Assembly (NCBI GenBank): GCA_023416335.1
Contig: JAEZHY010000267.1
Coordinates: 1 to 64,000 of the forward strand
Reading direction: 5' to 3'
DNA from: Pseudomonadota bacterium
Lineage (GTDB): Bacteria; Desulfobacterota; Syntrophobacteria; Syntrophobacterales; Syntrophobacteraceae
DNA: 64,000 bases
Within the stretch, counting starts at the first letter, position 1; the number at the start of each line of letters is the position of its first letter. Under the pieces are notes generated by a model. That model searched no databases and had not been told where the DNA came from. It saw only the letters and a program-made list of their open reading frames with translations. A program made the position numbers and the translations under genes. Shown here one piece after another: positions 1 to 60,482 of this stretch.

Positions 1-440
1 TCCCCATAGTCTTTGCGGTTGTCGAGCATGAAAAGAAGCAGCGTCCGTAGAGGCGCCATTCCGATGCCGCCGCCGATGAAAACGATGTTCTTGCCCTTCA
101 TTTTCTCGTAAGGAAAATGATTCCCGAGGGGGGCGCGCACGCCTATCTTGTCGCCCGCGGCAAGCCCGTGGAGCCTGGTAGTCACCTCTCCGGTCCGCAT
201 TACGCTGAACTGAAGATAGTCCATGCGGGTCGGGGGCGAATTGATAACGAAGGTGGATTCCCCCACTCCAAAAACTGAAAGCTGCCCTACCTGTCCGGGC
301 TGAAAGCTGAACGAATCCATCGCTTCCCTGTCGTCGAAACGCACCCGGAAGGTCTTGATGGTCGGCGTCTCCTGGACCGTCTCAAGGATCGTTGCCACTT
401 GCGGCAGGTAAGGGTTTATTGCAACACACGGCTCAGCCAT
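1..440 (-). CDS. flxA: FAD/NAD(P)-binding oxidoreductase subunit (FlxA-like), partial at the window edge
   Basis: The first 146 codons are visible; the gene runs off the left edge. The product begins with a ferredoxin-reductase-type FAD-binding beta-barrel (FQPGQVGQLSVFG, then the serine-containing FVINSPP) and enters a nucleotide-binding fold with IVFIGGGIGMAPLR at about residues 120-133. This is the pattern of flavin oxidoreductase subunits that feed NAD(P)H electrons to heterodisulfide reductase in HdrABC-FlxABCD systems. The ATG at 438-440 overlaps the stop codon of the preceding flxB-like gene by 8 bp, which indicates translational coupling. The family is seen directly; the role as NADH-oxidising subunit is inferred from the operon. 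Confidence 0.85.
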   Translation of the reverse strand, partial: MAEPCVAINPYLPQVATILETVQETPTIKTFRVRFDDREAMDSFSFQPGQVGQLSVFGVGESTFVINSPPTRMDYLQFSVMRTGEVTTRLHGLAAGDKIGVRAPLGNHFPYEKMKGKNIVFIGGGIGMAPLRTLLLFMLDNRKDYG

Positions 441-1548
441 TTGAAACCTCTTTGTTTTTATTCTTCGCGTGTTCGATCGCGTCGAGCACGATTTCCCGAA
501 TGTCCATGCTGACCGGGCAGCTCTTGATGCAGCGGCCGCAACCGACGCAGGCAATGAGACCCGAATGGAGCTTCGGATAGTAACTGAATTTGTGCCCTAC
601 CCTGTTTCTCAGCCGATGCGCTTTCGTGGGCCTTGGATTGTGGCCGCTCGCTTCCAGGCTGAACTGGTAGGACATGCAGTTATCCCAGGTCCTGAAGCGT
701 TTGCCGCTCAGTCCCGTGGCTTCATCGCTGATATTGAAACAATAGCAGGTCGGGCACAGGTAGGTGCACGCGCCGCAGCTGTGGCATTTCGCGGAGACCT
801 CTTCCCAGAACGGCATGTCGTCAAAAAGGGTGAGCAGGGCATCAGGAATTTTGCTTATATCCGGCGCCTTTTGCAGCTTTGACTTCACCCGTGCTTTTGC
901 CGTTTCCGCTTCTTTCGCCTTTTCTTTCCCGGAGGTCAGAAGCGAACTTTTGAGCAGGGCTTTGCCTCTTTCGCTCACGGCTTCCAGGACATAGCCTCCC
1001 TCAACCGCGGTTGCGAGCACGTCCGACCCCGTCGGGTCGGCAGGCCCCCCGCCCACCCAGTTGCAGAAGCAGGTATTGTCCACGTTCCTGCAGGTGAGCG
1101 TAACGAAAAGCGTATTGTCCCTCGCCGAAGCGTAATACGGATCGGGGAACTTCTTTCCCTTGTATACGCGGTCGAATATGGAGAATCCCCTCGCGCCGCA
1201 GGGTCTCGTCCCGAAAACCACTGTGGGTTCGGCCTGGACCTTCGGACTGAGATTCAACGAGAGCTTTTCCGGTTCGTCCGGATTTTTCGATTGCTCGAAT
1301 TGAAAGAGTTCCTGGCAGGAGGGAAGTATCACCCCTTTCGGGGAAACGGTAGCATCGAGCAGCAACACCGGGTCCGCTCCATCTTCGAACGGACGGAAAA
1401 CGATGCTTCCGCCTTCCTCCCTGGGAACAAGGACTTTCCGCTCCCGGCGTACCTCCGCGAGCCACTCCGATACTTTTTCCGCCTTCAGGAATACGATATT
1501 CTCCGTCTTCGGAGATTTTGCAGATTTTGCAGATTTTGCCTGGGCCAT
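433..1548 (-). CDS. flxB: 4Fe-4S dicluster subunit of an Hdr/Flx complex (FlxB-like; hydrogenase/sulfite reductase beta-subunit family)
   Basis: A 371-residue protein. The C-terminal third has two cysteine clusters of the ferredoxin dicluster type: CHSCGACTYLCPTCYC and CVGCGRCIKSCP. The middle part has additional cysteines (CGARG and the TCRNVDNTCFC region) typical of HyhB/AsrA-type electron-transfer subunits. It should relay electrons between the flavin subunit and the MvhD/Hdr modules in the cytoplasm. The start (1546-1548) overlaps the upstream stop by one base (TAATG). Oddly, the N-terminus has an Ala-Lys-Ser repeat encoded by three perfect 9-bp tandem units (1513-1539). The symbol follows the Desulfovibrio Flx naming and is my assignment by similarity of layout. 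Confidence 0.75.
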   Translation of the reverse strand: MAQAKSAKSAKSPKTENIVFLKAEKVSEWLAEVRRERKVLVPREEGGSIVFRPFEDGADPVLLLDATVSPKGVILPSCQELFQFEQSKNPDEPEKLSLNLSPKVQAEPTVVFGTRPCGARGFSIFDRVYKGKKFPDPYYASARDNTLFVTLTCRNVDNTCFCNWVGGGPADPTGSDVLATAVEGGYVLEAVSERGKALLKSSLLTSGKEKAKEAETAKARVKSKLQKAPDISKIPDALLTLFDDMPFWEEVSAKCHSCGACTYLCPTCYCFNISDEATGLSGKRFRTWDNCMSYQFSLEASGHNPRPTKAHRLRNRVGHKFSYYPKLHSGLIACVGCGRCIKSCPVSMDIREIVLDAIEHAKNKNKEVSNG

Positions 1549-3017
1549 TACAACGCCCCCTCATGTATATTTTTCTCCTCCGCCTGGAAAGCCAGAAGAG
1601 GAGGAACGGCTTCAGGATCTGTCCCAGCCTGGTACTCGAAAAGTTCCCAAATCACCCGGTTCATCTGCTGCTTGAGAGCCAGCACCGGAATATCCATTGG
1701 GCACGCCCTTTGGCATTCGCCGCACTCGGTGCATCTGCCGGACAGGTGCACGGAATGAACGACCTGGAACATGAGCTTCTCGGTAACCGTATCCTCCTGG
1801 CTGATCCAGTGAGGGTCGCGGCTCTGGGCGATGCAGTGGTCGCGGCAGACACAGAGTGGACAGGCATTGCGGCAGGCATGGCAGCGTATGCAGCGCTGCA
1901 TGTGGTACCGCCAGAACGCCATCCGCTCGGGAAGGCTCATCTTCTCGAGTGCTGCGAGCAGAGCAGGTCCATCCTTGATGGAACCCGCAGGAGTCTTTTT
2001 CTCTCCCACGAAATGGTCGGCGAGCACGCCGTTGGGGAATTTACAGGTCAGGCACTTGTCCGCGACGACATCCGCCATCGGGAAGGAGTATTCTTTCCCG
2101 TCGACGGTAACGTTCAGGGAATTCCCCTCGACTTCCACCCGTTCGACACGGCCGATGCCGGCGCCTTCTTTTTCAAGGGCTGCCCGGACCTTCGCAAGGT
2201 CGGCCACGCCGGAGCACGGCATACCGAAAACGACGACCTTGTCGCGGTCGATCAGTTTTTCCTGGAGCAGTTCGACAACCGAACGGCTGTCGCAACCCTT
2301 GACCACCACTCCGACTTTCTTGCCTTTCAAGGACGGCAGGTAGGAAGCCGGGTTGTGGGTATTTAGCGGCCCCCAGACGAGCTTATCGACGTCCGCGGGC
2401 GAGCGCATGAAAAGAGGCGTATTGTGAAGAGGATCGAAGCCCTGCTTCCACCCGATCACCACATCGAGGCCGGACATTTCCGCCTTGATGCGCTCCTTGA
2501 GTTCCTCGAGCTGCCGCGCGCTTTCTTCGCCCGCAAGAGCAACAAGTTCGCCCGCCGCGGCCTGTTCGAATTCCGCAAAAACAGCAGGAAGATCGACGTC
2601 CTCGATGCGCGGTGCCGGACCGAGCTTATGAATCCGCTCGGTAAAGCTGCTCACGACCTTCTGCCACCGCTGTCCCTCGGAAGCCGATACCCACGTGTAT
2701 TCGAAGCGGTCCGAATCGATCCCGAGCACCGGGAGGAATCTTTTCAGTACTTCGAGGCGCCTTCTGGCGTAGAAATTACCCTGCGAATAATGGCAATCCC
2801 TGGGATGACAGCCGGAAACCAGCACGCCGTCCGCTCCGTTCAATAACGCCTTCGCTACAAAAAGCGGATCGATCCGGCCGGAACACGGGACGCGAATGAT
2901 GCGCAGGTCGGTAGGCTGGGCAAACCGGCCCACTCCCGCGGTATCCGCCCCGCCGTAAGAACACCAGTTGCACAGGAAACCGACGATCCGCAGTTCTTTT
3001 CCATTTAGAACCGACAT
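1548..3017 (-). CDS. Fused MvhD/FlxD - FlxC-type iron-sulfur protein
   Basis: A 489-residue protein with two modules. Residues 1-130 are an MvhD/FrhD-type delta subunit: FLCNWCSYGGAD near the start, then VPCSGRID and GCHPRDCHY, giving the cysteines of its Fe-S site. Residues ~190-489 are an FrhB/FlxC-like domain (KGCDSRSVVELLQEKLI, FGMPCSG), ending in two 4Fe-4S motifs, CIRCHACRNACPLCVC and CTECGECQRACP. In most organisms these are separate genes, so one chain would join the electron-entry module to HdrA. The ATG at 3015-3017 overlaps the hdrA stop by 13 bp. Domain identities are seen; the physical coupling role is inferred. Confidence 0.8.
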   Translation of the reverse strand: MSVLNGKELRIVGFLCNWCSYGGADTAGVGRFAQPTDLRIIRVPCSGRIDPLFVAKALLNGADGVLVSGCHPRDCHYSQGNFYARRRLEVLKRFLPVLGIDSDRFEYTWVSASEGQRWQKVVSSFTERIHKLGPAPRIEDVDLPAVFAEFEQAAAGELVALAGEESARQLEELKERIKAEMSGLDVVIGWKQGFDPLHNTPLFMRSPADVDKLVWGPLNTHNPASYLPSLKGKKVGVVVKGCDSRSVVELLQEKLIDRDKVVVFGMPCSGVADLAKVRAALEKEGAGIGRVERVEVEGNSLNVTVDGKEYSFPMADVVADKCLTCKFPNGVLADHFVGEKKTPAGSIKDGPALLAALEKMSLPERMAFWRYHMQRCIRCHACRNACPLCVCRDHCIAQSRDPHWISQEDTVTEKLMFQVVHSVHLSGRCTECGECQRACPMDIPVLALKQQMNRVIWELFEYQAGTDPEAVPPLLAFQAEEKNIHEGAL

Positions 3018-4963
3018 AAGCTGTTGACCTCCGCAAGGATTTGATTATCGGTAAAATGCGAGAGCTGAATGGCTCCCTGCGGACAGGTCGACGTGCAGAT
3101 GCCGCAACCCTGGCAGACGGTCTCGATGACTTCCGCCTTGGTCTCGCCGCGAATCTGGACTTCCTTGATCGCGCCAAATGGGCAGGTCATCATACATTTT
3201 CCGCAGCCGACGCATCGTTTGATTTCGACGCGGGAAATCTGCGGATCACTTTCCAGTTTGCCCTTGGAGAAAAGACCGATAACCTTTGCAGCCGCCGCAC
3301 TCCCCTGGGCAACCGAGGATGGAATGTCCTTCGGACCTTGGCAGGAACCGGCGAGATATACTCCAGCCGTGTTCGTTTCTACCGGTCGGAGTTTTGGATG
3401 GCTTTCCATGAAAAAGCCGTATTTGTCGTAGGAGATGCGAAGTCTTTCCGCGAGGGTCGGGGCTCCGGCTGCGGCTTCGACTCCGGCCGCCAGAACAACG
3501 AGGTCCGCCTCGATTTCGACTTCCGTACCCAGAAGCGTGTCCGCTCCGCGAACCACGTACTTCTTGCCCTGCGGATAAACCATGGCAACGCGGCCCCGCA
3601 CGTAATGGGCGCCGTATTCCTCGATCGCGCGCCGGGTGAACTCGTCATAGAGTTTTCCGGGTGCACGGATATCCATGTAGAATACGTATATCTCGGAATC
3701 GGGAATGTGATCCTTCGTCAATATGGCCTGTTTCGCCGTGTACATACAGCAGAAGCCGGAACAGTACGGACGGTCGAGCGACTTGTCGCGGGACCCGACG
3801 CACTGAACGAAAACGACGGTCTTTGGCTCCATTCCGTCGGAGGGCCTCTTCACATGCCCGCCGGTCGGCCCTGAAGCAGAGAGCAGCCGCTCGTACTGCA
3901 GAGAAGTGATGACGTCAGGGTAGCGCCCCCCACCGTATTCGCCGCACTTTGAGATATCGAAAAGATCGTAGCCGGTTGCGGCGACGATCGCGCCGACGTT
4001 TTCGGTAACGATTTCATCGGTCATTTCGTAATCGATCGCACCGGACGGACAGACCTTTGCACATACGCCGCACTTGCCCTTCTTGAAATGCCGGCAGGTG
4101 CCCGCGTCGATAACAGCTTTTTTCGGAATGGCCTGGGGAAAGGGAATATTGATGGAAGTGGTGAGGCCTATGCGTTCGTTAAAGCGATCCCGGTTTTTCT
4201 TATTGGGGCACTTTTCCGCGCAAATGCCGCAGCCAGTGCACTTGCTCCAGTCAACGTAGGTGGCTTTCTTCCTTACCTCGACCTGGAAGTTCCCGACATA
4301 CCCGCTGACCTGTTCCACCTCGGAGCATGCCAGGAGTTTGATATTGGGGTGCTGCGCCACATCGACCATTTTGGGGCCGAGAATACAACTCGAACAGTCT
4401 ACGGTCGGGAAGGTCTTGTCCAGTTTGGCCATTTTGCCGCCGATGGTGGATTCGCGTTCCACAAGGACGACTTCCATCCCCGCTTCCGCGCAGTCCAGGG
4501 CTGCCTGGATTCCGGCCACGCCGCCGCCGATTATCATGACGCGCTTGTTTATTTCGAACTGTCTGGAGAACAGAGGAGCGTTACGCCGCAGCTTGGAAAC
4601 AGCCATCCGAACGAGTTCCGTGGCCTTGTTCGTATTGGCTTCGCGGTCTTTGCCGATCCAGGAGACGTGCTCGCGGATATTGGCCATTTCGAAAAGATAC
4701 TTGTTGAGCCCGGCCCGTTCCACCGCACGCCGAAAAGTGGTTTCATGCATGCGCGGCGAACACGAGGCCACGACAATCCCGGTCAGGTTCTTCTCCCGGA
4801 TTGCCTGGATGATAGCGTCCTGCCCCGGTTCCGAGCAGGCATACATGGTATCGGTCGCCCAAACCACCTCGGGAAAGAGAAGAGCATTTCGGGCCACGGC
4901 GGCCGTATCCACCGTACCCTCTATATTGCTGCCGCAATGGCAGACGAAAACACCGATTCGCAT
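3005..4963 (-). CDS. hdrA: Heterodisulfide reductase subunit A (HdrA), flavin bifurcation subunit
   Basis: 652 residues, the full length of the short HdrA class. Order: N-terminal CHCGSNI segment (~8-14), FAD-binding GGGVAG (~146-151) with the following GGKMAKLDKTFP and DCSSC (~189-193), ferredoxin motifs CTGCGICAEKCP (~242-253) and CGVCAKVCP, and two C-terminal clusters CVGCGKCMMTCP and CQGCGICTSTCP. In bifurcating HdrABC the HdrA flavin splits electron pairs between ferredoxin and HdrB. Positions that carry selenocysteine in some methanogen HdrA proteins are ordinary Cys codons here (YCSGFCC). It follows hdrB after 38 bp. Confidence 0.95.
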   Translation of the reverse strand: MRIGVFVCHCGSNIEGTVDTAAVARNALLFPEVVWATDTMYACSEPGQDAIIQAIREKNLTGIVVASCSPRMHETTFRRAVERAGLNKYLFEMANIREHVSWIGKDREANTNKATELVRMAVSKLRRNAPLFSRQFEINKRVMIIGGGVAGIQAALDCAEAGMEVVLVERESTIGGKMAKLDKTFPTVDCSSCILGPKMVDVAQHPNIKLLACSEVEQVSGYVGNFQVEVRKKATYVDWSKCTGCGICAEKCPNKKNRDRFNERIGLTTSINIPFPQAIPKKAVIDAGTCRHFKKGKCGVCAKVCPSGAIDYEMTDEIVTENVGAIVAATGYDLFDISKCGEYGGGRYPDVITSLQYERLLSASGPTGGHVKRPSDGMEPKTVVFVQCVGSRDKSLDRPYCSGFCCMYTAKQAILTKDHIPDSEIYVFYMDIRAPGKLYDEFTRRAIEEYGAHYVRGRVAMVYPQGKKYVVRGADTLLGTEVEIEADLVVLAAGVEAAAGAPTLAERLRISYDKYGFFMESHPKLRPVETNTAGVYLAGSCQGPKDIPSSVAQGSAAAAKVIGLFSKGKLESDPQISRVEIKRCVGCGKCMMTCPFGAIKEVQIRGETKAEVIETVCQGCGICTSTCPQGAIQLSHFTDNQILAEVNSLCRF

Positions 4964-7170: not shown

Positions 7171-8550
7171 ATGGAAATGACGATGCATAAGAAGTCAAAC
7201 GCGCGGGAATCTACTCTGTCACCCCAAACCGAAATTATCCTGAACAGCATTGCGGACGGGGTTTTCACAGTTGACCCTGAATGGAGGATCACGTTCTTCA
7301 ATGATGCTGCGCAAGAGATTACGGGGGTCTCTTCTTCCGAAGCCATCGGACGTCCCTGTTGCGAGGTCTTCCGGGCCAACATCTGTGAATCGACCTGCGC
7401 CTTGAAATCCACAATGGAAACGAAAAGAGCCATAATCAACAAACCCGTCGTGATCCTTCGGGCGGACGGCAAGGAAATCCCTATAAGTGTCAGCACGGCT
7501 TTGCTCAAGGACAAATCGGGCAGGATCATCGGCGGGGTGGAGACATTTCGCGACCTGAGCCTCGTGGAAACACTGCGAAAGGAAATCGAACGCCAATATC
7601 GTTTCCAGGATATTATCTCCAAGTCCCGCGTGATGAAGCAGATCTTTTCGATCCTCCCAGAGGTGGCTCAAAGTGAAAGCACGGTGCTGATCCAGGGAGA
7701 AAGCGGAACGGGGAAGGAACTCCTTAGCCGCGCCGTTCACAGCCTGAGCCCGAGAGCAAAAAGGCCGTTTGTTGCTGTAAACTGCGGTGCGCTTCCCGAT
7801 ACGCTGCTGGAATCCGAGCTTTTCGGCCATGTCGCAGGGGCATTCACGGACGCAAAGCACAGCCGGGCCGGACGGTTCGCTCTCGCTGAAGGAGGGACCT
7901 TATTCCTCGATGAAATCGGAGACATTTCTCCGGCATTCCAGGTCCGCCTGCTGAGGGTCCTCGAGGAGCATGCCTATGAACCGCTTGGGTCTTCGAAGAG
8001 CGTAAGAACAAACGTAAGAATCATTACCGCAACCAATAAGGACCTATCTCAGCTGGTCCTGGAGGGTTCCTTTCGGAAGGACCTCTATTATCGAATAAAC
8101 GTGGTGAAGCTGGAGTTGCCTCCTCTCGCCCGACGCAAAGAAGATATTCCCCTTCTTTCCGAACACTTCATCGAACGCCTGAACAAACTCAAAAACAAGA
8201 ACATTGCCGGATTGACTCCGGAAGCCATGGCAATATTTATGCGCCATAATTGGCCCGGGAACATCCGGGAACTGGAAAATGTAATAGAGTACGCATTTAT
8301 CCTCTGCCGCGACGGGCTTATTCAACCCAAATGCCTGCCCGACTATCTCAGCCTAAATGGATCAAAAATTCCTGATTTTGCGGGATCCAGCCTCATCGAT
8401 GCAGAAAAGCGCACGATAATCAAGGCGCTTGACCGCAACGGTTGGCGCCGGATGGCAACCGCCCGCGAACTCGGGATAGATAAGAACACCCTGAGGCGCA
8501 AGGTGATCAGGCTGAACATTCGCGAACAAGGCGAATCCGAAGATAGATAA
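7171..8550 (+). CDS. Sigma-54-dependent transcriptional activator with an N-terminal PAS domain
   Basis: 459 residues. PAS domain at ~20-135, with a cysteine group at ~63-77 (the CC of GRPCC, then two more within CESTC). The AAA+ module has Walker A GESGTGKE (176-183), the sigma-54 contact loop GAFTDA (223-228) and LFLDEIG. A C-terminal Fis-type helix-turn-helix ends in LGIDKNTLRRK. It is an enhancer-binding protein that should activate sigma-54 promoters of the adjacent NifX/MinD genes and perhaps the divergent hdr operon, as in Desulfovibrio ORP clusters. ATGs at 7171, 7177 and 7183 are all possible; none has a strong ribosome site. The PAS cysteines suggest redox or Fe-S sensing (inference). 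Confidence 0.9.
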   Translation: MEMTMHKKSNARESTLSPQTEIILNSIADGVFTVDPEWRITFFNDAAQEITGVSSSEAIGRPCCEVFRANICESTCALKSTMETKRAIINKPVVILRADGKEIPISVSTALLKDKSGRIIGGVETFRDLSLVETLRKEIERQYRFQDIISKSRVMKQIFSILPEVAQSESTVLIQGESGTGKELLSRAVHSLSPRAKRPFVAVNCGALPDTLLESELFGHVAGAFTDAKHSRAGRFALAEGGTLFLDEIGDISPAFQVRLLRVLEEHAYEPLGSSKSVRTNVRIITATNKDLSQLVLEGSFRKDLYYRINVVKLELPPLARRKEDIPLLSEHFIERLNKLKNKNIAGLTPEAMAIFMRHNWPGNIRELENVIEYAFILCRDGLIQPKCLPDYLSLNGSKIPDFAGSSLIDAEKRTIIKALDRNGWRRMATARELGIDKNTLRRKVIRLNIREQGESEDR

Positions 8551-8778
8551 GAACCGCTCTCCTCCAACCCTCCTCGGTTTTCTTTTCCCGGACCTGTTCT
8601 TCAAGCAGGTTCAAACTCACCACCGTCTTCGATATTGATTTGTTTTCCTCGGAGTTCCTGCCTGGGAACAATTTGCATCCCATTCCGCGCCTAGAGGGAA
8701 CAATCAGTTCCCATTCCATCGTGGTTCCTTCTTCGACGACAAGGCAGGATCCAGTCCCCATCCCGGTTATCCTCCAAA

Positions 8779-8793
8779 TGGCCCGTTTCTTGA
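8779..8793 (+). promoter_or_regulatory. Candidate sigma-54 (-24/-12) promoter, imperfect
   Basis: The bases TGGCCCGTTTCTTGA match the sigma-54 consensus TGGCACG-N4-TTGC except for A in place of the usual C of the -12 GC and one change in the -24 box. It sits 54 bp before the start of the NifX-type gene at 8848, a normal distance, and downstream of a sigma-54 activator gene. The missing -12 C lowers confidence. Confidence 0.3.
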
Positions 8794-8847
8794 TTAACTC
8801 CTTTCCTGAGTGCGATCCGACCCTGAGAAGAAAGGATAAGGAGGACC

Positions 8848-9351
8848 ATGCCGGCCATTCCGGTTTTTCGAGCCCGGGTAGCGCCAGTGCTCGACTGGTG
8901 TTCGAAAATACTGATTTTTCCTGAACAAGGGGAGGACCTCCAATCGTATCGAGAGATCGATGTGATGGAAAAGAATATCTTCAAGGTGATGCAAATCCTG
9001 CGTGAGCAGGGTATCAAGACCCTTATCTGCGGGGCTCTGAGTCCCGAGACGTTGAACTACGCCGAAAGTATCGGTTTACAGATCATCCACGGGGTCGCGG
9101 GCGATATCGCGGAAATTTTGCAGGCGTACCGGGAACAAAAACTGGATCAGCCCCGGTATTGGCTTCCCGGGTGCAGGGGACAGCGCCGATACAAAGCCGG
9201 CGCGACCTGCAATGAAAAAGGAACGATCGCAGGCGGGCCGGGAGGGTTTTGCGTCTGCCCCAAATGCGGAGCGAAAAGGGAACACGAACGCGGGATACCC
9301 TGCTCACAGGTCCGCTGTTTGTCATGCAACAGTTCGATGACCAGGGGATGA
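8848..9351 (+). CDS. NifX/NifB-family (dinitrogenase iron-molybdenum cofactor type) protein with a C-terminal zinc-ribbon-like tail
   Basis: 167 residues. The N-terminal ~100 residues have the NifX-like fold pattern (IPVFRARVAPVLDW, then TLICGALSPETLNYAESIGLQIIHG), in a family that binds Fe-S or Mo clusters. The C-terminal part has CPKCGAKREHERGIPC followed by CLSC, a four-cysteine arrangement typical of the longer members found in ORP-type clusters. The start is set by AAGGAGG at 8838-8844, four bases before the ATG. It is the first gene of the plus-strand NifX/MinD series. A 192-base stretch without a gene follows it. Cluster-carrier function is inferred from the family. Confidence 0.75.
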   Translation: MPAIPVFRARVAPVLDWCSKILIFPEQGEDLQSYREIDVMEKNIFKVMQILREQGIKTLICGALSPETLNYAESIGLQIIHGVAGDIAEILQAYREQKLDQPRYWLPGCRGQRRYKAGATCNEKGTIAGGPGGFCVCPKCGAKREHERGIPCSQVRCLSCNSSMTRG

Positions 9352-9543
9352 GTTTCGGCAAGGACCCCGCACCGTGCCGTGTCCAAAGATGAGTGCTGAC
9401 GACGATCCGTTTCACCTTGGGGGTAATCCGGCCTCCTTGCAAGAATTCGACATCGTGATTGCGGACAGGATAGGCCGGAGCTTCCGGAGAGAACGTCGTC
9501 ATGTTTTCAGATAGCCGGAGCGCCGGCAGACGAGGTGCAAAGC

Positions 9544-9906
9544 ATGAGAATAGCAATAACAAGTGAAGGTCCCGGCCTGGAAGACCAGGTGGACCCGAGG
9601 TTCGGCAGGGCTGCAGGTTTCGTTGTCGTTGACCTCGAAACCATGGATACCCGCTATGTCGATAACGGCAAGTCCCAGGTAATGGCCCAGGGCGCAGGCA
9701 TTCAGGCGACCGAAATAGTTGCCGGTGAAGGAGTCGGTTGTGTTCTCACGGGATATGTGGGGCCGAAGGCGTTCCGGGCGCTTTCCGCCGTTAAGATCTC
9801 GGTTGTGCAGAACCTGGACGGCATGACGGTACGCCGGGCGATCGAGCGTTTCCAAAGCGGAGAATTGAAACCGGCGGATGGGCCGAACAGGAGTCCGGGA
9901 CGATGA
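9544..9906 (+). CDS. NifX-type dinitrogenase iron-molybdenum cofactor family protein
   Basis: 120 residues of the short NifX/ORP fold: MRIAITSEGPGLEDQVDPRFGRA at the start, VLTGYVGPKAFRAL in the middle and a charged tail. Members bind Mo-Cu or Fe-S clusters in the ORP complex of Desulfovibrio. I chose the ATG at 9544 rather than a GTG at 9535, because GAGGTG (9533-9538) is well placed as ribosome site for the former. The stop overlaps the next start (ATGA, 9903-9906), coupling it to the first MinD-type ATPase. Confidence 0.8.
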   Translation: MRIAITSEGPGLEDQVDPRFGRAAGFVVVDLETMDTRYVDNGKSQVMAQGAGIQATEIVAGEGVGCVLTGYVGPKAFRALSAVKISVVQNLDGMTVRRAIERFQSGELKPADGPNRSPGR

Positions 9907-10784
9907 TTGTTTCCGTTGCCAGCGGCAAAGGAGGCACGGGCAAGACCACTGTGGCAGCCTCCCTTGCGAGTGTCTGGGGGAAACCACTTATCGCAGTCGA
10001 CCTGGATGTGGAAGAGCCCAACCTGCACCTGTTTCTGCGCCCTGAAATCGAGGAGACCATCAAGACTTATCTGGAAGTGCCGGCCGTTGACGAATCCAGA
10101 TGCACGCATTGCGGCGCCTGCTCTGAGTTATGCCAGTTCAAGGCTATCAGCGTGATGGGCACATTGGTCCTTACATTTCCGGAAATGTGCCATGGATGCG
10201 GAGGCTGCATCGCTTTGTGTCCGGAGAAAGCGCTTTCGCCCGGGGAGAGGGAACTGGGAGAAATAGGCCGGGGCCATGCGGGTGAAGTGGAATTTCTCAT
10301 GGGCCGGTTGCGGATAGGTGAAGCGATGAGCCCCCCTTTCATGCGCCAGGTCAAATCGAGGCTCAGGGAGATTATATCGGCCGAAGGCTCCGATGCGATT
10401 ATCGATGCTCCTCCGGGGGTCAGCTGTCCGGCGGTTAATGCGGTCATCGACAGCGATGTGATCGTCCTGGTGACCGAGCCGACTCCCTTCGGCTTCCATG
10501 ATTTCAAGCTTGCATGGGAAGCGTTCTCTTCGCTGGGCAAGCCGATGGGCACAGTCATAAATCGTGCCGGTGTCGGCAATGAAGAGGTTTATTCGTTTTG
10601 CAGAAGCAAAGGGTTACCCATTCTGGCTGAAATTCCTTTCGAGCGGGCCATTGCGGAGGCCTATGCCCGCGGCTTGGTGATCGCGGACCTGTCGGAGGAA
10701 TTGAGACATGTGTTCGTATCCATGCATGTGAAGATTTGCGAATTGGCCGGAACACCGGTTCCCGCGGAGGCGGCCCATGCGTGA
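9903..10784 (+). CDS. MinD/Mrp-superfamily P-loop ATPase with inserted ferredoxin domain (ORP-type), first copy
   Basis: 293 residues. Deviant Walker A GKGGTGKT at 8-15; a two-cluster ferredoxin insert with Cys 67, 70, 73, 77 and Cys 96, 99, 102, 106; switch II DAPPG; then VTEPTPFGFHD, the hallmark of this subfamily. These cytoplasmic ATPases are thought to load or move Fe-S clusters and form part of the ORP complex. It overlaps both neighbours (4 bp upstream, 8 bp downstream), so the NifX protein and the two ATPases are probably made together. It is paralogous to the next gene. Confidence 0.9.
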   Translation: MIVSVASGKGGTGKTTVAASLASVWGKPLIAVDLDVEEPNLHLFLRPEIEETIKTYLEVPAVDESRCTHCGACSELCQFKAISVMGTLVLTFPEMCHGCGGCIALCPEKALSPGERELGEIGRGHAGEVEFLMGRLRIGEAMSPPFMRQVKSRLREIISAEGSDAIIDAPPGVSCPAVNAVIDSDVIVLVTEPTPFGFHDFKLAWEAFSSLGKPMGTVINRAGVGNEEVYSFCRSKGLPILAEIPFERAIAEAYARGLVIADLSEELRHVFVSMHVKICELAGTPVPAEAAHA

Positions 10785-11679
10785 AGTGCTCATTATCAGC
10801 GGCAAGGGTGGAACGGGTAAGACATCGCTCACCGGAGCATTTGCCCATCTGGCATCGAACAAGATCATCTGCGACCTGGATGTAGACGCCCCGGATCTTC
10901 ATCTGCTGCTCCATCCGACAAATTGTCAAAGCGAGGAATTCCATTCCGGGTATGAGGCCAGGATCGTCCCTGACGAATGCACCGGCTGCGGAATATGCGC
11001 ATCCATGTGCCGATACGATGCCGTGCGAAGCAACGGGAACGGGTTTTCAATCGATCCCCTCCGTTGCGAAGGCTGTAAGGTTTGCGTCAAGTTCTGCCCG
11101 GCCGGGGCCATTCAGTTTCCGCTGAAGCACTGCGGCCGTTGGTACCTGTCGTCAACCAGGTTCGGCCCGCTTGTCCATGCTCAGCTCTTTCCCGGTGAAG
11201 CAAATTCCGGACGGCTTGTCATGGTTCTCAAGCAACAGGCACGGGACCTGGCCAAGTCCTATGGGAAGAGGCTCATCCTTTGCGATGGTGCGCCGGGAAT
11301 CGGATGCCCCGTAATCAGTTCCCTTTCCGGTACCAACCTCGCGGTTGCGGTAACCGAGCCTACACCCTCGGGGCGGCATGACCTCGAAAGGGTTGCCGAG
11401 GTCTGCAACCATTTCAAGGTCGCATTCGCCGTCATCATCAACAAATGCGATCTCAACAATGAAGAGACCGAGAAAATCGAAGCTTTTTGCCGGTTGCATG
11501 GCTACCCGGTTATCGGGAGGCTCCCGCATGATCCGGTTGTAACGAAAGCGATGGTACAAGGCCACGTGGTCACTGAATTGCCCGAAACCGGGTTTAGCCT
11601 GGAGTTGCGAAGAATATGGCTCCGAATCGAAGACCTCGCCGGGCTTGTGACAATCAGTGCTCGTGGCAGGTTTCAGTAA
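10777..11679 (+). CDS. MinD/Mrp-superfamily P-loop ATPase with inserted ferredoxin domain (ORP-type), second copy
   Basis: 300 residues. Walker A GKGGTGKT at 9-16; ferredoxin insert with Cys 68, 71, 74, 78 and Cys 97, 100, 103, 107; switch region CDGAPGIGCPV; VTEPTPSGRHD. Same architecture as the preceding gene, with which it overlaps by 8 bp; the pair probably forms a heterodimer, as the tandem ATPases of ORP clusters do. A 53-base gap with a small GGGCG/CGCCC hairpin separates it from the next NifX-type gene, which has its own ribosome site. Confidence 0.9.
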   Translation: MREVLIISGKGGTGKTSLTGAFAHLASNKIICDLDVDAPDLHLLLHPTNCQSEEFHSGYEARIVPDECTGCGICASMCRYDAVRSNGNGFSIDPLRCEGCKVCVKFCPAGAIQFPLKHCGRWYLSSTRFGPLVHAQLFPGEANSGRLVMVLKQQARDLAKSYGKRLILCDGAPGIGCPVISSLSGTNLAVAVTEPTPSGRHDLERVAEVCNHFKVAFAVIINKCDLNNEETEKIEAFCRLHGYPVIGRLPHDPVVTKAMVQGHVVTELPETGFSLELRRIWLRIEDLAGLVTISARGRFQ

Positions 11680-11732
11680 TGGGCGGGCAATGCGCCCGTC
11701 GAATTAATCACGATCAACTATGAGGTAGAATA

Positions 11733-12113
11733 ATGAAAAGCATCACTGTAGCCGTTCCCTCTACTCTTCCCGGAGGCATGGACTCTCCTCTCGGCGCTCA
11801 CTTCGGACATTGTGACCTCTATACCCTGGTGGAAATAGCAGACGACAAGATACAGAACGTTCGCCTTTTGCCGAATGTGCCTCACCAACAGGGCGGGTGC
11901 ATGGCCCCGGTAAATCATCTCGCCCAAAACGGCGTAAATACCCTGATTGCCGGCGGGATGGGCATGCGGCCGCTCATGGGTTTCAACCAGGTTGGAATCA
12001 ACGTGATGTATGCCGGCGGCTTTCAAACGGTCGGAGAGGCTGTCCAGGCTTTTTTGCAGGGAAGTCTCCGGCAGTTCACGAGCGATTACACATGCGGCGG
12101 CGGAGGCGCGTAA
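11733..12113 (+). CDS. NifX-type dinitrogenase iron-molybdenum cofactor family protein
   Basis: 126 residues. MKSITVAVPSTLPGGMDSPLGAHFGHCD at the N-terminus, with HFG and Cys at the position where the family meets its cluster; GGCMAPVNHLAQNGVNTLIAGGMGMRPL in the middle; and a C-terminal CGGGGA. This is the third NifX-type gene of the locus and the closest in pattern to the stand-alone MTH1175-like group. GAGGT at 11721-11725 precedes the ATG by 7 bases. Metal or Fe-S cluster binding is inferred from the family. Confidence 0.82.
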   Translation: MKSITVAVPSTLPGGMDSPLGAHFGHCDLYTLVEIADDKIQNVRLLPNVPHQQGGCMAPVNHLAQNGVNTLIAGGMGMRPLMGFNQVGINVMYAGGFQTVGEAVQAFLQGSLRQFTSDYTCGGGGA

Positions 12114-12179: not shown

Positions 12180-12497
12180 ATGGGCCAGATTGAATTCAAA
12201 GGCAGGAGTTTCGAAGTTGACGAAGACGGCTTTATTGCCAGCTTTGAAACGTGGTGTCCCGAATGGGTCGATTATGTGAAGACGTCCGAGGGGATTGCCG
12301 AGTTGACCGAAGAGCACTGGAAGGTCATTCACGTGCTTCAGGATTATTACAGGAAGCACGGGATCGCCCCGATGGTCAGAATCCTCACCAAGGTCACGGG
12401 ATATAAACTCAAGTATATCTATGATCTGTTCCCCTCGGGACCGGGTAAAGGTGCCTGCAAAATGGCAGGTCTGCCTAAGCCGACCGGTTGTGTTTAA
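12180..12497 (+). CDS. dsrC: DsrC/TusE-family sulfur carrier
   Basis: 105 residues. The C-terminal arm GKGACKMAGLPKPTGCV carries both functional cysteines, Cys 93 and the penultimate Cys 104, which marks a true DsrC able to form the trisulfide/disulfide, rather than a single-Cys TusE. In sulfate reducers DsrC is the co-substrate of dissimilatory sulfite reductase. Its disulfide is reduced by membrane complexes or possibly by soluble Hdr modules like the one at 1-6440. The start at 12180 is supported by GGAGGGAGGA (12164-12173); an ATG at 12159 lies before that site. No dsrAB is in the window. Confidence 0.93.
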   Translation: MGQIEFKGRSFEVDEDGFIASFETWCPEWVDYVKTSEGIAELTEEHWKVIHVLQDYYRKHGIAPMVRILTKVTGYKLKYIYDLFPSGPGKGACKMAGLPKPTGCV

Positions 12498-13016: not shown

Positions 13017-13262
13017 ATGCCTATATTCGAATTTCTTTGTGCCTCCTGCGGAAATATGTTTGAGAAACTGGTGTACGGGAGTGATGAAGTAAACTGTGAA
13101 AAATGTGGGAGCACTGAAACAACAAAACTGCCGTCCAAATCTTCCAGCCTTTCCGGAACCAGGCAGCAAGGCAGGGTGCCCGAAACCGGGGATACGGGAT
13201 GCTGCGGTTCTGCTCCTGCTTCCCGGGGCTGTGTCCCCGGAAGCTGTTGCGGCAAAGCCTGA
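13017..13262 (+). CDS. FmdB-family zinc-ribbon protein
   Basis: 81 residues. MPIFEFLCASCG then CEKCGS gives the CxxC...CxxC zinc ribbon of the FmdB/CxxC-CxxC-SSSS family, followed by the serine stretch SKSSSLS. The C-terminal tail is rich in cysteine and glycine (CCGS, GCVPGSCCGK), as is common for such proteins in anaerobes. GGGGA at 13007-13011 precedes the ATG at 13017. The family is regarded as regulatory but is poorly characterised. It sits 43 bp before the DsrE-like selenoprotein gene. Confidence 0.8.
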   Translation: MPIFEFLCASCGNMFEKLVYGSDEVNCEKCGSTETTKLPSKSSSLSGTRQQGRVPETGDTGCCGSAPASRGCVPGSCCGKA

Positions 13263-13305
13263 TTACTTTTAACCATGCTTCAAACAAAATGCAGGGAGAA
13301 TGAAA

Positions 13306-13656
13306 ATGGCAAATTTTCTTTTCGTACTGGGCAAGGATGACAACGAGGCTGCAACCAGATGCTTCCAGTTGACAAAAATCGCCCATACAAAAGGCCACAA
13401 ATGTAATTTGTTCTTTATCGACGGGGGCGTTTTGTGGGCAGACAGGACCCGCGACCTCACCGTGAAGACCGTTACGGGGGATTGTCCCAACGACTATCTG
13501 CCTTACCTGGTTGAGAAAGAAGTTCCCATCGGAGTCTGAGTGCCCTGCGCCAATGCTCGTCAGGTTGACGAGTCGAAGTTCTTCCCCAATATGGGCCTCG
13601 ACGGGGGACCGCATCTGATAGACCTGGCCGCGGAAGCCAAGGTGTTCAACTTTTAA
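13306..13656 (+). CDS. DsrE/F-family selenoprotein with in-frame TGA (selenocysteine 78)
   Basis: A 116-residue DsrE-like protein if TGA at 13537-13539 is read as selenocysteine; otherwise it stops after 77 residues. The first part has the DsrE fold pattern (FLFVLGKDDNEAATRCFQL, CNLFFIDGGVLW). After the TGA the same frame continues with VPCANARQVDES and LIDLAAEAKVFNF, the expected end of the family. Sec78 and Cys81 form a UxxC motif where homologues have CxxC. A 7-bp hairpin with GGT loop follows at the right distance. AGGGAG (13293-13298) favours ATG 13306 over 13300. It is close to dsrC, so a role in sulfur or thiol transfer is likely (inference). Confidence 0.88.
13556..13572 (+). promoter_or_regulatory. 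Bacterial SECIS hairpin directing Sec insertion at 13537-13539
   Basis: CTCGTCA (13556-13562) pairs perfectly with TGACGAG (13566-13572) around the three-base loop GGT. The loop begins 24 nt after the last base of the TGA, inside the usual bacterial range, and the first loop base is G, as SelB recognition requires. The hairpin lies within the coding sequence, as bacterial SECIS elements do. Confidence 0.85.
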
Positions 13657-13917
13657 GAGTGAGTGGGGGTTCCGATTATTATCGGCCCCTCATGCGGATT
13701 CAACTTGCAGTAAAGACATTCCAGGGTGTTTCTGTCGTGGAGGAGGATCAAAACGGCCCTCGAAAAACCATTCAGGCAGCCAGAAGTGTCATGCTCCGAA
13801 ACCGCCCGTAATGGATCGTGCGGATGTCGCGTTATTTTGACGACCATGGCCAAACCGGAATCGTGCTATTATCATACGGACGTGCCGTCAATCTATAGAT
13901 CGAAAATGGAGCACCTG

Positions 13918-14310
13918 ATGGAGACCTTCCAGATCAAGACACCATCGCATTCGGCTGCAGTGGACATCACCGACCGTGTTTCCGCCGCATTGAAGGAAAC
14001 GGGCGTACGGGACGGCATCTGCCTTGTCTACGTTCCGCACACCACGGCCGGTCTGATCATAAACGAAGGAGCCGATCCGGACGTCATGGACGACGTGCTG
14101 ACGACTCTCGACAAAATGGTTCCATGGAAGGGTGCATACAAGCACGGCGAAGGGAATTCCGCCGCCCACATCAAGTCGATCCTGGCCGGAGGCAGCGTGC
14201 AGGTGATCGTCGGTTCGGGAAAACTCGTCCTGGGGACCTGGGAGCGAATTTTTCTGATGGAATTCGACGGGCCGCGGATGAGGAAGGTATTCGTGGAATG
14301 CAGGGGGTGA
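13918..14310 (+). CDS. yjbQ: YjbQ/UPF0047 family protein (secondary thiamine-phosphate synthase family)
   Basis: 130 residues. FQIKTPSHSAAVDITDRV at the N-terminus, VYVPHTTAGLIINEGADPDV (the conserved HTT motif), HGEGNSAAHIKS and GTWERIFLMEFDGPR are the diagnostic blocks of YjbQ. The E. coli protein has weak thiamine-phosphate synthase activity, but the true substrate is unknown. I start it at ATG 13918, since GGAG (13908-13911) precedes it well; an ATG at 13906 is possible. It stands alone, 260 bp after the selenoprotein gene. Confidence 0.88.
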   Translation: METFQIKTPSHSAAVDITDRVSAALKETGVRDGICLVYVPHTTAGLIINEGADPDVMDDVLTTLDKMVPWKGAYKHGEGNSAAHIKSILAGGSVQVIVGSGKLVLGTWERIFLMEFDGPRMRKVFVECRG

Positions 14311-58971: not shown

Positions 58972-58995
58972 GTTCTTAACGAGTAAAAATTGAAT

Positions 58996-59083
58996 ATAGC
59001 CGGGGGGTGCTCTCTCCGAACGAGAGCTGAGATAATACCCTTGGAACCTGATCCGGTTAATGCCGGCGGAGGAAACGGCTAAA
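58996..59083 (+). promoter_or_regulatory. TPP riboswitch (THI element)
   Basis: Core blocks are all present: GGGGTGC, GCTGAGA, ATACCC, GAACCTGATC and TTAATGCCGGCG. The closing stem P1 pairs TAGCCG (58997-59002) with CGGCTA (59076-59081). It stands in front of thiC and should shut it off when thiamine pyrophosphate is bound. Confidence 0.97.
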
Positions 59084-59097
59084 ATAGGGAAGATTCG

Positions 59098-59210: not shown

Positions 59211-60482
59211 ATGGCAACTCAGCTGGAATTAGCCAAAGCAGGCATCATAACGGATGAAATGAACAAAGCGGTCGCAGACGAGCCGATATCCGCGGAAGAA
59301 CTGCGAGACCTGATAGCGGCGGGACTTGCTGTATTGCCCAGGAACCTCAACCATTCGTTCCCCACGATCAGGGCAATCGGGAAGAACCTCAAGACCAAGG
59401 TAAATGCCAACCTGGGAACCAGCGGTGAATGCTGTTCCCTGGATTTCGAAAAAGAAAAACTCGAAGCGGCGGTAAGGGCCAAAGCCGATTCCATTATGGA
59501 CCTTTCGACAGGCGGGGACTTGTCCGAATTCAGGAGTTTCTTCCTGCAGAATTCACCGGTCATCGTTGGGGCCGTCCCCATTTACGGCGTAGCGTCGGAA
59601 ATGGTTGCCCGCCATGAAGCCCTGGCCACCATGCAGCCGGATCAACTCCTGCGAAGCATCGAAAAACAGTGCAGCGCCGGAATCGACTACATTACCGTCC
59701 ACTGCGGCGTAACACGGGCTTCGGTCAAGAAGCTCGAACACTACGAGCGCATCATGCCCTGCGTAAGCCGCGGCGGCTCCATCCACATGGCCTGGATGCG
59801 CAAGAACAACAAGGAAAATCCCCTTTACGAGTATTACGACGACCTGCTCGATATCGCATACAAGTACGACGTGACCCTGAGCCTCGGGGACGGCTTCCGC
59901 CCGGGTGCAATCCTCGATGCAACCGATGGGCCGCAACTCGAAGAATTGATGATTCTGGCGGAACTGGCAAAAAGAGCCAGGGACCGGAACGTCCAGGTCA
60001 TGATCGAAGGTCCCGGGCACGTACCGCTCAACCAGATAACCGCCAATATCATGCTCCAGAAAAAGCTGTGCGGCGGCGCTCCTTTCTATATCCTCGGACC
60101 GCTGCCTACCGATATCGCAGCCGGGTACGACCATATCACCTCGGCTATCGGGGGGGCCATCGCGGGGGCTGCGGGAGCCGACTACCTGTGCTACGTGACC
60201 CCTGCTGAACATCTCGGATTGCCGACGGCGGACGATGTTTACCAGGGAGTTATGGCGGCAAGAATCGCGGGCCACATTGCGGACATTGCGAAAGGACTGC
60301 CTGGAGCGATCGAAGCCGATCGGCGTATGTCCATAGCACGGAGAGACCTCGACTGGGACGGCATGGTCAGGGAAGCCCTCGACCCGGATCTTGTCAAAAA
60401 ACGCCTCCAGGTAACGGAAGACCGCGAAGGCTGCTCCATGTGCGGCAAGCTATGCGCCGTCAAAATCAGCCGGGCAATTTAA
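59211..60482 (+). CDS. thiC: Phosphomethylpyrimidine synthase ThiC
   Basis: 423 residues, the short anaerobe form without the N-terminal extension. NLGTSGECCSLDFEKEKL, MDLSTGGDLSEFR, TVHCGVTRASVK, GSIHMAWMRKN, GPGHVPLNQITANI and the C-terminal iron-sulfur motif CSMCGKLC (Cys 408, 411, 415) identify it. It is a radical-SAM enzyme converting aminoimidazole ribotide to the pyrimidine of thiamine. Regulated by the TPP riboswitch upstream. No other thiamine gene is adjacent. Confidence 0.97.
   Translation: MATQLELAKAGIITDEMNKAVADEPISAEELRDLIAAGLAVLPRNLNHSFPTIRAIGKNLKTKVNANLGTSGECCSLDFEKEKLEAAVRAKADSIMDLSTGGDLSEFRSFFLQNSPVIVGAVPIYGVASEMVARHEALATMQPDQLLRSIEKQCSAGIDYITVHCGVTRASVKKLEHYERIMPCVSRGGSIHMAWMRKNNKENPLYEYYDDLLDIAYKYDVTLSLGDGFRPGAILDATDGPQLEELMILAELAKRARDRNVQVMIEGPGHVPLNQITANIMLQKKLCGGAPFYILGPLPTDIAAGYDHITSAIGGAIAGAAGADYLCYVTPAEHLGLPTADDVYQGVMAARIAGHIADIAKGLPGAIEADRRMSIARRDLDWDGMVREALDPDLVKKRLQVTEDREGCSMCGKLCAVKISRAI

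Follow-up and report, generated by a model that had tools for sequence, protein, structure and literature searches.

Reading frame and in-frame TGA of the dsrE-type gene

The stretch analysed here, called the window, comprises 64,000 nucleotides (nt) of a Syntrophobacteraceae contig (JAEZHY010000267.1, positions 1 to 64,000) and carries a dsrE-type gene whose frame contains a TGA codon. This raises the question of whether the codon is a lesion or is read as selenocysteine (Sec), and what a selenol would do in a DsrE fold. A first-pass annotation, made from the sequence alone, had proposed a DsrE-family selenoprotein with a hairpin of the selenocysteine insertion sequence (SECIS) type. The comparison with relatives supports this Sec reading and the fold, and a sulfane-sulfur or thiol-redox role appears likely; the two taken together, that is Sec at this codon plus a sulfur or thiol role in the broad sense, are very likely.

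The gene lies on the plus strand at 13306-13656 and has 116 codons when read through the TGA at codon 78, from an ATG at 13306 to a TAA stop at 13654-13656. A likely ribosome-binding site, AGGGAG (13293-13298, plus strand, read by eye), is located 7 nt 5′ of the ATG, and the N-terminus that follows, MANFLF, is that of most homologues in the alignment. The TGA occupies 13537-13539 (plus strand), exactly as annotated, and is the only one in the frame, which shows no second lesion up to the C-terminus. Read as Sec, it is the U of a UVPC motif (residues 78-81), whose partner cysteine, Cys81, is encoded by TGC at 13546-13548 on the same strand. The 116-residue read-through product matches the Pfam DsrE profile (PF02635) with 62.6 bits over profile positions 4-116 (cut-off 22.7), whereas the 77-residue product scores 32.4 bits and covers positions 3-76 only. 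The domain is thus complete only if the TGA is read through, and the annotated continuation does complete it. The expectation that homologues would have CxxC in place of UxxC also holds in the alignment: 119 of 121 rows have Cys at residue 78 (the window row being entered as C for U), and Cys81 is present in all 121. The remaining two, P0045 and P0096, have Trp at residue 78, as would result from a gene caller translating TGA as Trp.

Elsewhere in the window TGA is an ordinary stop, for example in the fmdB-like open reading frame (ORF) ending at 13262. A coding-score filter applied to both sides of frames spanning a TGA (with at least 25 codons before and at least 12 after it) was passed by four frames. 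The one at 13306-13656 has the top rank among them, and each of the other three runs antisense to a long ORF. No further selenoprotein gene in the window passed this filter, which can miss short frames.

A SECIS-type hairpin and its conservation in TGA-form orthologues

A SECIS-type hairpin with seven Watson-Crick pairs and a GGU loop is found at 13555-13573 (plus strand), these limits including a possible outer G-U pair (13555/13573). Its core, CTCGTCA-GGT-TGACGAG at 13556-13572, follows the TGA after 16 nt, and the perfect 7-bp stem and loop were annotated at precisely these positions. When the 19 downstream residues were recoded synonymously using the codon usage of the window, 7 of 20,000 recodings yielded a perfect 7-bp stem at this place. 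Across 13 clear ORFs of the window, such a stem occurs at 37 of 6,735 codon positions, in 13 cases with GG in the loop.

We then scanned genome contigs, one genome per species, with a degenerate pattern in which TGA, PCA, R85, D88 and E89 were fixed, while the wobble bases, residue 79 and residue 86 were left free. The scan gave 60 loci from 58 assemblies (three in one assembly), and all 60 are DsrE orthologues that stay open past the TGA with a conserved downstream part; homologues ending at the TGA, the contrary outcome named in the first-pass annotation, were not seen among them. The locus titles give Desulfobacterales, Desulfobacteraceae, Syntrophobacteraceae, Desulfohalobiaceae, Deltaproteobacteria and the like, with one Nitrospiraceae and one Proteobacteria. 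In the window and these 60 loci together, the hairpin codons are CGT in 60 of 61, CAG and GAC in all 61 and GAG in 56.

In pattern-free surveys of three overlapping samples (395, 55 and 340 genomes), TGA forms turned up alongside Cys forms. The phylum sample contained 19 full-length orthologues of at least 66% identity, 11 with one TGA and 8 without. The non-identical rows amount to 77 TGA (including the window) and 49 Cys rows at 60% identity or more, with 4 TGA and 21 Cys78 rows below 60%. Across the 126 rows of the closer set, codon 78 is TGA, TGC or TGT and never TGG. The TGA rows of this set have CGT in 75, CAG in 77, GAC in 76 and GAG in 71 of 77 cases, whereas the same codons are found in only 9, 4, 18 and 20 of the 49 Cys rows, respectively. 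All 77 TGA rows have Gln at residue 86 and 75 of them have Val at residue 87; at both positions the Cys rows are mixed. In summary, the hairpin codons CGT CAG GTK GAC GAG hardly vary among TGA forms but have drifted among Cys forms.

Pairing was computed on 48-nt alignments of 78 distinct TGA rows (4 of them below 60% identity) and 48 distinct Cys rows. The seven stem pairs form in 89.9% of the cells in TGA rows and in 42.6% in Cys rows; control structures slid along the alignment pair far less than the TGA rows do (16.5-50.2%). The fifth pair of the TGA rows is U-A in 73, C-G in four (L081, L090, L168 and L171) and broken in one (L049), and in L171 the two pairs after the fifth are also changed on both sides. 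Where codon 84 lacks C at its second base, GAA stands for GAG in 4 of 13 rows, versus 2 of 61 (Fisher p = 0.0075, relatedness uncorrected). Two TGA rows have no Cys81, with Ser in L163 and Phe in L169, leaving Sec without its motif partner; the genome match of L169 also has an internal TAG.

Selenocysteine machinery in the genomes of relatives

We searched for selA, selB and tRNA-Sec in the draft genomes of 50 TGA-form relatives from the 60 pattern loci. Matches over the cut-off were obtained for selB in 40, for tRNA-Sec in 41 and for selA in 38 genomes, and at least one of the three is present in 49 of the 50, G020 alone showing none. The tRNA-Sec cut-off was also exceeded by 5 of 14 control genomes, which casts doubt on scores close to it; 40 of the 41 matches lie above 55 bits. 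Since all 60 orthologues are open past the TGA, their hairpin codons are frozen and Sec machinery is present in the relatives, UGA78 is, on this comparative evidence, almost certainly decoded as selenocysteine.

Relationship of the Sec and Cys forms

A tree was calculated without columns 78-91 from 126 rows, of which 75 were treated as Sec (among them P0045, with Trp) and 51 as Cys. By parsimony, six Sec/Cys changes suffice and two are forced by starred branches, but the tree has few columns and 8 of its 123 inner branches are starred, so that the number of changes is loose. The window protein groups with P0002 (Cys), L022 (TGA), L091 (Cys) and P0003 (Cys) with an SH-aLRT value of 96, and P0002, the nearest listed protein, is 91% identical to it with Cys at 78. 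In L091, from assembly G032, a TGC at codon 78 is followed by GCT CGT CAG GTT GAC GAG, which keeps the hairpin codons; it is the only Cys row noted to keep the hairpin and is most simply, and likely, a Sec-to-Cys reversion with a remnant SECIS. A Sec-to-Cys change with a remnant SECIS is among the 15 events in four families described in the available text of a 2006 study (PMC1794560). At the protein level only, ARQVDE is kept by the Cys forms P0002, P0003 and P0008.

The locus L022 (DMNE01000081.1) carries a Nitrospiraceae title, yet its DsrE groups with the window protein and with L091 of G032, an assembly that also holds the Syntrophobacteraceae-titled L032, which could point to a mistaken title or to a gene transfer. 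The Sec and Cys forms are closely related orthologues and occur together in the draft assemblies G012, G023 and G032 (where mixed bins are possible), which makes the family well suited to testing what selenium contributes to a sulfur-carrier fold.

Truncation of family members in databases

A search with the 77-residue product returned 1,189 proteins. Among the best 120 of these, 97 are 77-90 residues long (94 of them exactly 77, in line with the annotated forecast of truncated 77-79-residue gene calls) and the remaining 23 have 116 residues; 95 of the 97 short proteins end in Gly-Val, the two residues preceding the TGA. The more distant TGA relative L090 gave 299 matches, and among the best 120 there are 82 of exactly 79 residues, the length of L090 up to its TGA. 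Truncation at the TGA is thus common in database copies, and many family members in public databases are cut short at the active site.

Proposed function and alternative explanations

In the mechanism that we propose, SelB and tRNA-Sec would decode UGA78, guided by the hairpin at 13555-13573, and Sec78 would sit where DsrE has its sulfur-carrying Cys78, forming a UxPC pair with Cys81 at the end of a beta-strand. The selenol of Sec78 would attack sulfane sulfur (a persulfide, polysulfide or thiosulfonate), and the sulfur could be held briefly as Se-SH or be resolved to an Se-S bond with Cys81. A thiol partner would then receive sulfur or electrons, and DsrF/DsrH subunits would probably not take part. 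We infer the substrate, the partner and the chemistry, and put this selenol-based sulfur or thiol transfer forward as a plausible but tentative proposal. A more specific version is rather unlikely. In it, a perselenide (Se-SH) at Sec78 would serve the anaerobes' sulfur metabolism as the carrier of sulfane sulfur, and the DsrE family would have recruited Sec more than once (as UxxC and CxxU, see below), with Cys reversions that keep the hairpin.

Several observations weigh against the main interpretation, a selenoprotein with a sulfur or thiol role. Single-sequence folding gives weak free-energy z-scores (-1.21 and -1.72), and an Rfam search of 13400-13700 with E values up to 10 found no match to the hairpin, so that the window hairpin alone is not decisive and the comparison with relatives decides. 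The covariation in this comparison is thin: double-sided changes are more numerous in two slid controls (10 and 15 cells versus 6), 98 of 500 shuffles attain as many further pair types, and even among the Cys rows four pairs are changed on both sides, a number that 2 of 500 shuffles attain. Stem compensation is therefore only supporting, and the frozen codons carry the case. No tRNA gene was found in the 64-kb window, nor any sel gene among the ORFs scanned. In addition, selB is equally common in Cys-form genomes (42 of 46), so that the machinery does not explain which form is present and was rejected as the cause of the Sec/Cys split. Sec is dispensable, since P0002, P0003 and L091 group with the window protein yet have Cys. 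As for the function, Sec78 is equated with Cys78 of DsrE by a weak phmmer alignment (E = 0.42) in which DsrE has Ala at position 81, and the TusD equivalog profile TIGR03012 gives 15.6 bits, below its cut-off of 89.25. Finally, no conserved gene neighbourhood was found across the orthologues (126 loci, with incomplete flanks).

The weak folding score, together with Cys78 in the closest protein, P0002, would also fit a broken gene or a sequencing error, in which a TGC or TGT had become TGA in this contig and the hairpin was accidental. This is very improbable: the TGA occurs at the same codon in the 60 loci of 58 assemblies, which refutes the explanation at the family level, the frame is open to the C-terminus, and hairpin codons that drift in Cys forms are nearly frozen where codon 78 is TGA. 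The two listed homologues with Trp78 could suggest a genetic code in which TGA stands for tryptophan (code 4 or 25), but this is refuted by the TGA stops of other window ORFs, no other sense-strand frame passed the TGA-spanning test, and the absence of TGG at codon 78 in the 126 rows speaks against it as well, leaving it practically no likelihood.

If UGA78 encodes Sec, the protein could still serve thiol-disulfide or peroxide redox chemistry, with UxxC as a thioredoxin-type motif, instead of sulfur transfer. No Cys occupies the Cys81 position in DsrE (2hy5_A), and a UxxC pair is typical of redox selenoproteins; moreover, the published tables, in the text available to us, class DsrE-like UxxC proteins as thiol-dependent redox proteins (PMC1088965, PMC1794560), and some relatives are named predicted peroxiredoxin by JGI. 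We consider this possible, if doubtful, as the fold is that of sulfur-relay proteins, residue 78 aligns, weakly, with a persulfide-carrying Cys, and the Pfam scan detected no peroxiredoxin or thioredoxin domain. The selenol might also deliver or remove sulfur in an iron-sulfur or molybdenum/copper cluster-assembly module, for the ORP-like ATPases and NifX-like proteins encoded upstream. Such a set is present in the window at 7171-12113 and resembles the ORP operons of Desulfovibrio vulgaris, as far as these are described in the source text (PMC6345978), and L022 has MinD- and NifX-type genes (by clustering) and an FmdB-like gene (by eye) nearby. Within 2.5 kb, however, NifXc is found at 6 of 76 TGA-form and 2 of 49 Cys-form loci and MinD2 at 4 of 76 and 0 of 49 (relatedness uncorrected), which does not indicate a general partner and makes a cluster-assembly role improbable.

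Gene neighbourhood

The dsrE gene is directly preceded by an fmdB-type zinc-ribbon gene (13017-13262, plus strand) with no TGA inside, and its direct downstream neighbour is a UPF0047 gene (13921-14310). Further upstream are a dsrC-type gene (12180-12497, plus strand), which encodes both cysteines of the C-terminal arm (CKMAGLPKPTGCV), and the ORP-like set, made up of a sigma-54 regulator, NifX-like proteins and two ferredoxin-domain MinD-type ATPases. The proximity of dsrC had been taken in the first-pass annotation as a pointer to function. In a tblastn search of the surrounding DNA (E 1e-5, with limited sensitivity for short proteins), DsrC was found at 0 of 76 TGA-form and 0 of 49 Cys-form loci; dsrC is a neighbour in the window and at none of these loci, and the argument from its proximity to a functional partner was rejected as a general one.

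Of the 126 loci, no more than 10 share a neighbour cluster. The flanks are short for many loci, reaching at least 1.2 kb on both sides in 47 of the 76 TGA loci, and the sensitivity of tblastn for short proteins is limited, as the search missed the FmdB-like gene of L022. This locus, the nearest TGA-form relative examined, also has a receiver-like neighbour, seen by eye. A gene that looks by eye like an S-adenosylmethionine (SAM)-methyltransferase lies 3′ of the TGA-form dsrE on the same strand in L004, L009, L011, L045, L050 and L055, and neighbour cluster 4, in the context of this gene, comprises 7 TGA loci and 0 Cys loci. A search of plasmid records gave no match.

A CxxU subfamily and other features of the window

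In a separate DsrE subfamily, the TGA takes the place of the second motif Cys (CxxU); identity to the window protein is about 28-32% in the five cases measured. Six loci, L105, L106, L107, L111, L176 and L177 (the last being the same gene as L172), form a group with ACKA-U-VDHR. Apart from them, L190 has ACKA-U-ADKR and a strong hairpin downstream of the TGA, with 9 pairs (one of them G-U) and the loop GUCC; the hairpins of the six orthologues are less regular. The genomes of the CxxU forms contain selB in 7 of 7 and tRNA-Sec in 6 of 7 cases. No CxxU DsrE was found in the open-licence literature in the text available, where the lists give UxxC for DsrE (PMC1088965, PMC2398784, PMC13188914, PMC9312934). 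The CxxU subfamily would extend these lists.

Genes like those for HdrA2, VhuD and a sulfhydrogenase beta subunit are located at 433-4963 on the minus strand, with scores below the curated cut-offs. The VhuD-like protein has the motif CNWCSYGGAD. Selenoprotein forms of VhuD have Sec at the second Cys of this motif; since Cys stands there in the window protein, it looks like the Cys form. The sole Rfam match in the window is a thiamine pyrophosphate (TPP) riboswitch at 58993-59092 (74.3 bits), upstream of thiC at 59211.

Comparison with known systems

In DsrE of Allochromatium vinosum and TusD of Escherichia coli, Cys78 acts in a sulfur relay; the window protein differs from both in having Sec at the position that aligns, weakly, with this Cys and, in addition, Cys81. 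No DsrF/DsrH-type (tusC, tusB) genes were found among the scanned neighbours, which cover part of the window ORFs, the direct neighbours being the FmdB-type and UPF0047 genes. To YchN and the stand-alone DsrE/F-like proteins (1jx7, 3mc3, 3pnx), the sequence identity is 16-20%; these three are structural-genomics entries by title and have, to our knowledge, no established function.

The closest likeness is to the DsrE-like UxxC selenoproteins already in print, which bears out the remark in the first-pass annotation that such proteins had been noted in deltaproteobacteria (PMC1088965, PMC1794560). In the available text of these sources, two sequences were reported from the Sargasso Sea set in 2005 (PMC1088965), one from D. 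vulgaris in 2006 (PMC1794560), and DsrE 1 and DsrE 2 selenoproteins from the GOS set (PMC2398784); a DsrE-like selenoprotein was listed as predicted in 2022 (PMC9312934) and 2026 (PMC13188914), with WP_014524487.1 as representative. The same texts, where they mention function, give it as unknown (PMC1088965, PMC1794560, PMC9312934, PMC13188914). The published proteins share with the window protein, as far as they are described there, the Pfam DsrE domain, Sec as the first residue of UxxC, a bacterial SECIS and an origin in Deltaproteobacteria. This likeness, including that to the D. vulgaris protein, is one of description and does not imply identity of subfamily; the distant TGA rows L080, L081 and L090 may be closer to the D. 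vulgaris-type protein. In summary, the window protein belongs to an already known kind of selenoprotein, and the comparison turns what was a single guess into a family from anaerobic sulfur bacteria whose Sec reading has been tested against relatives.
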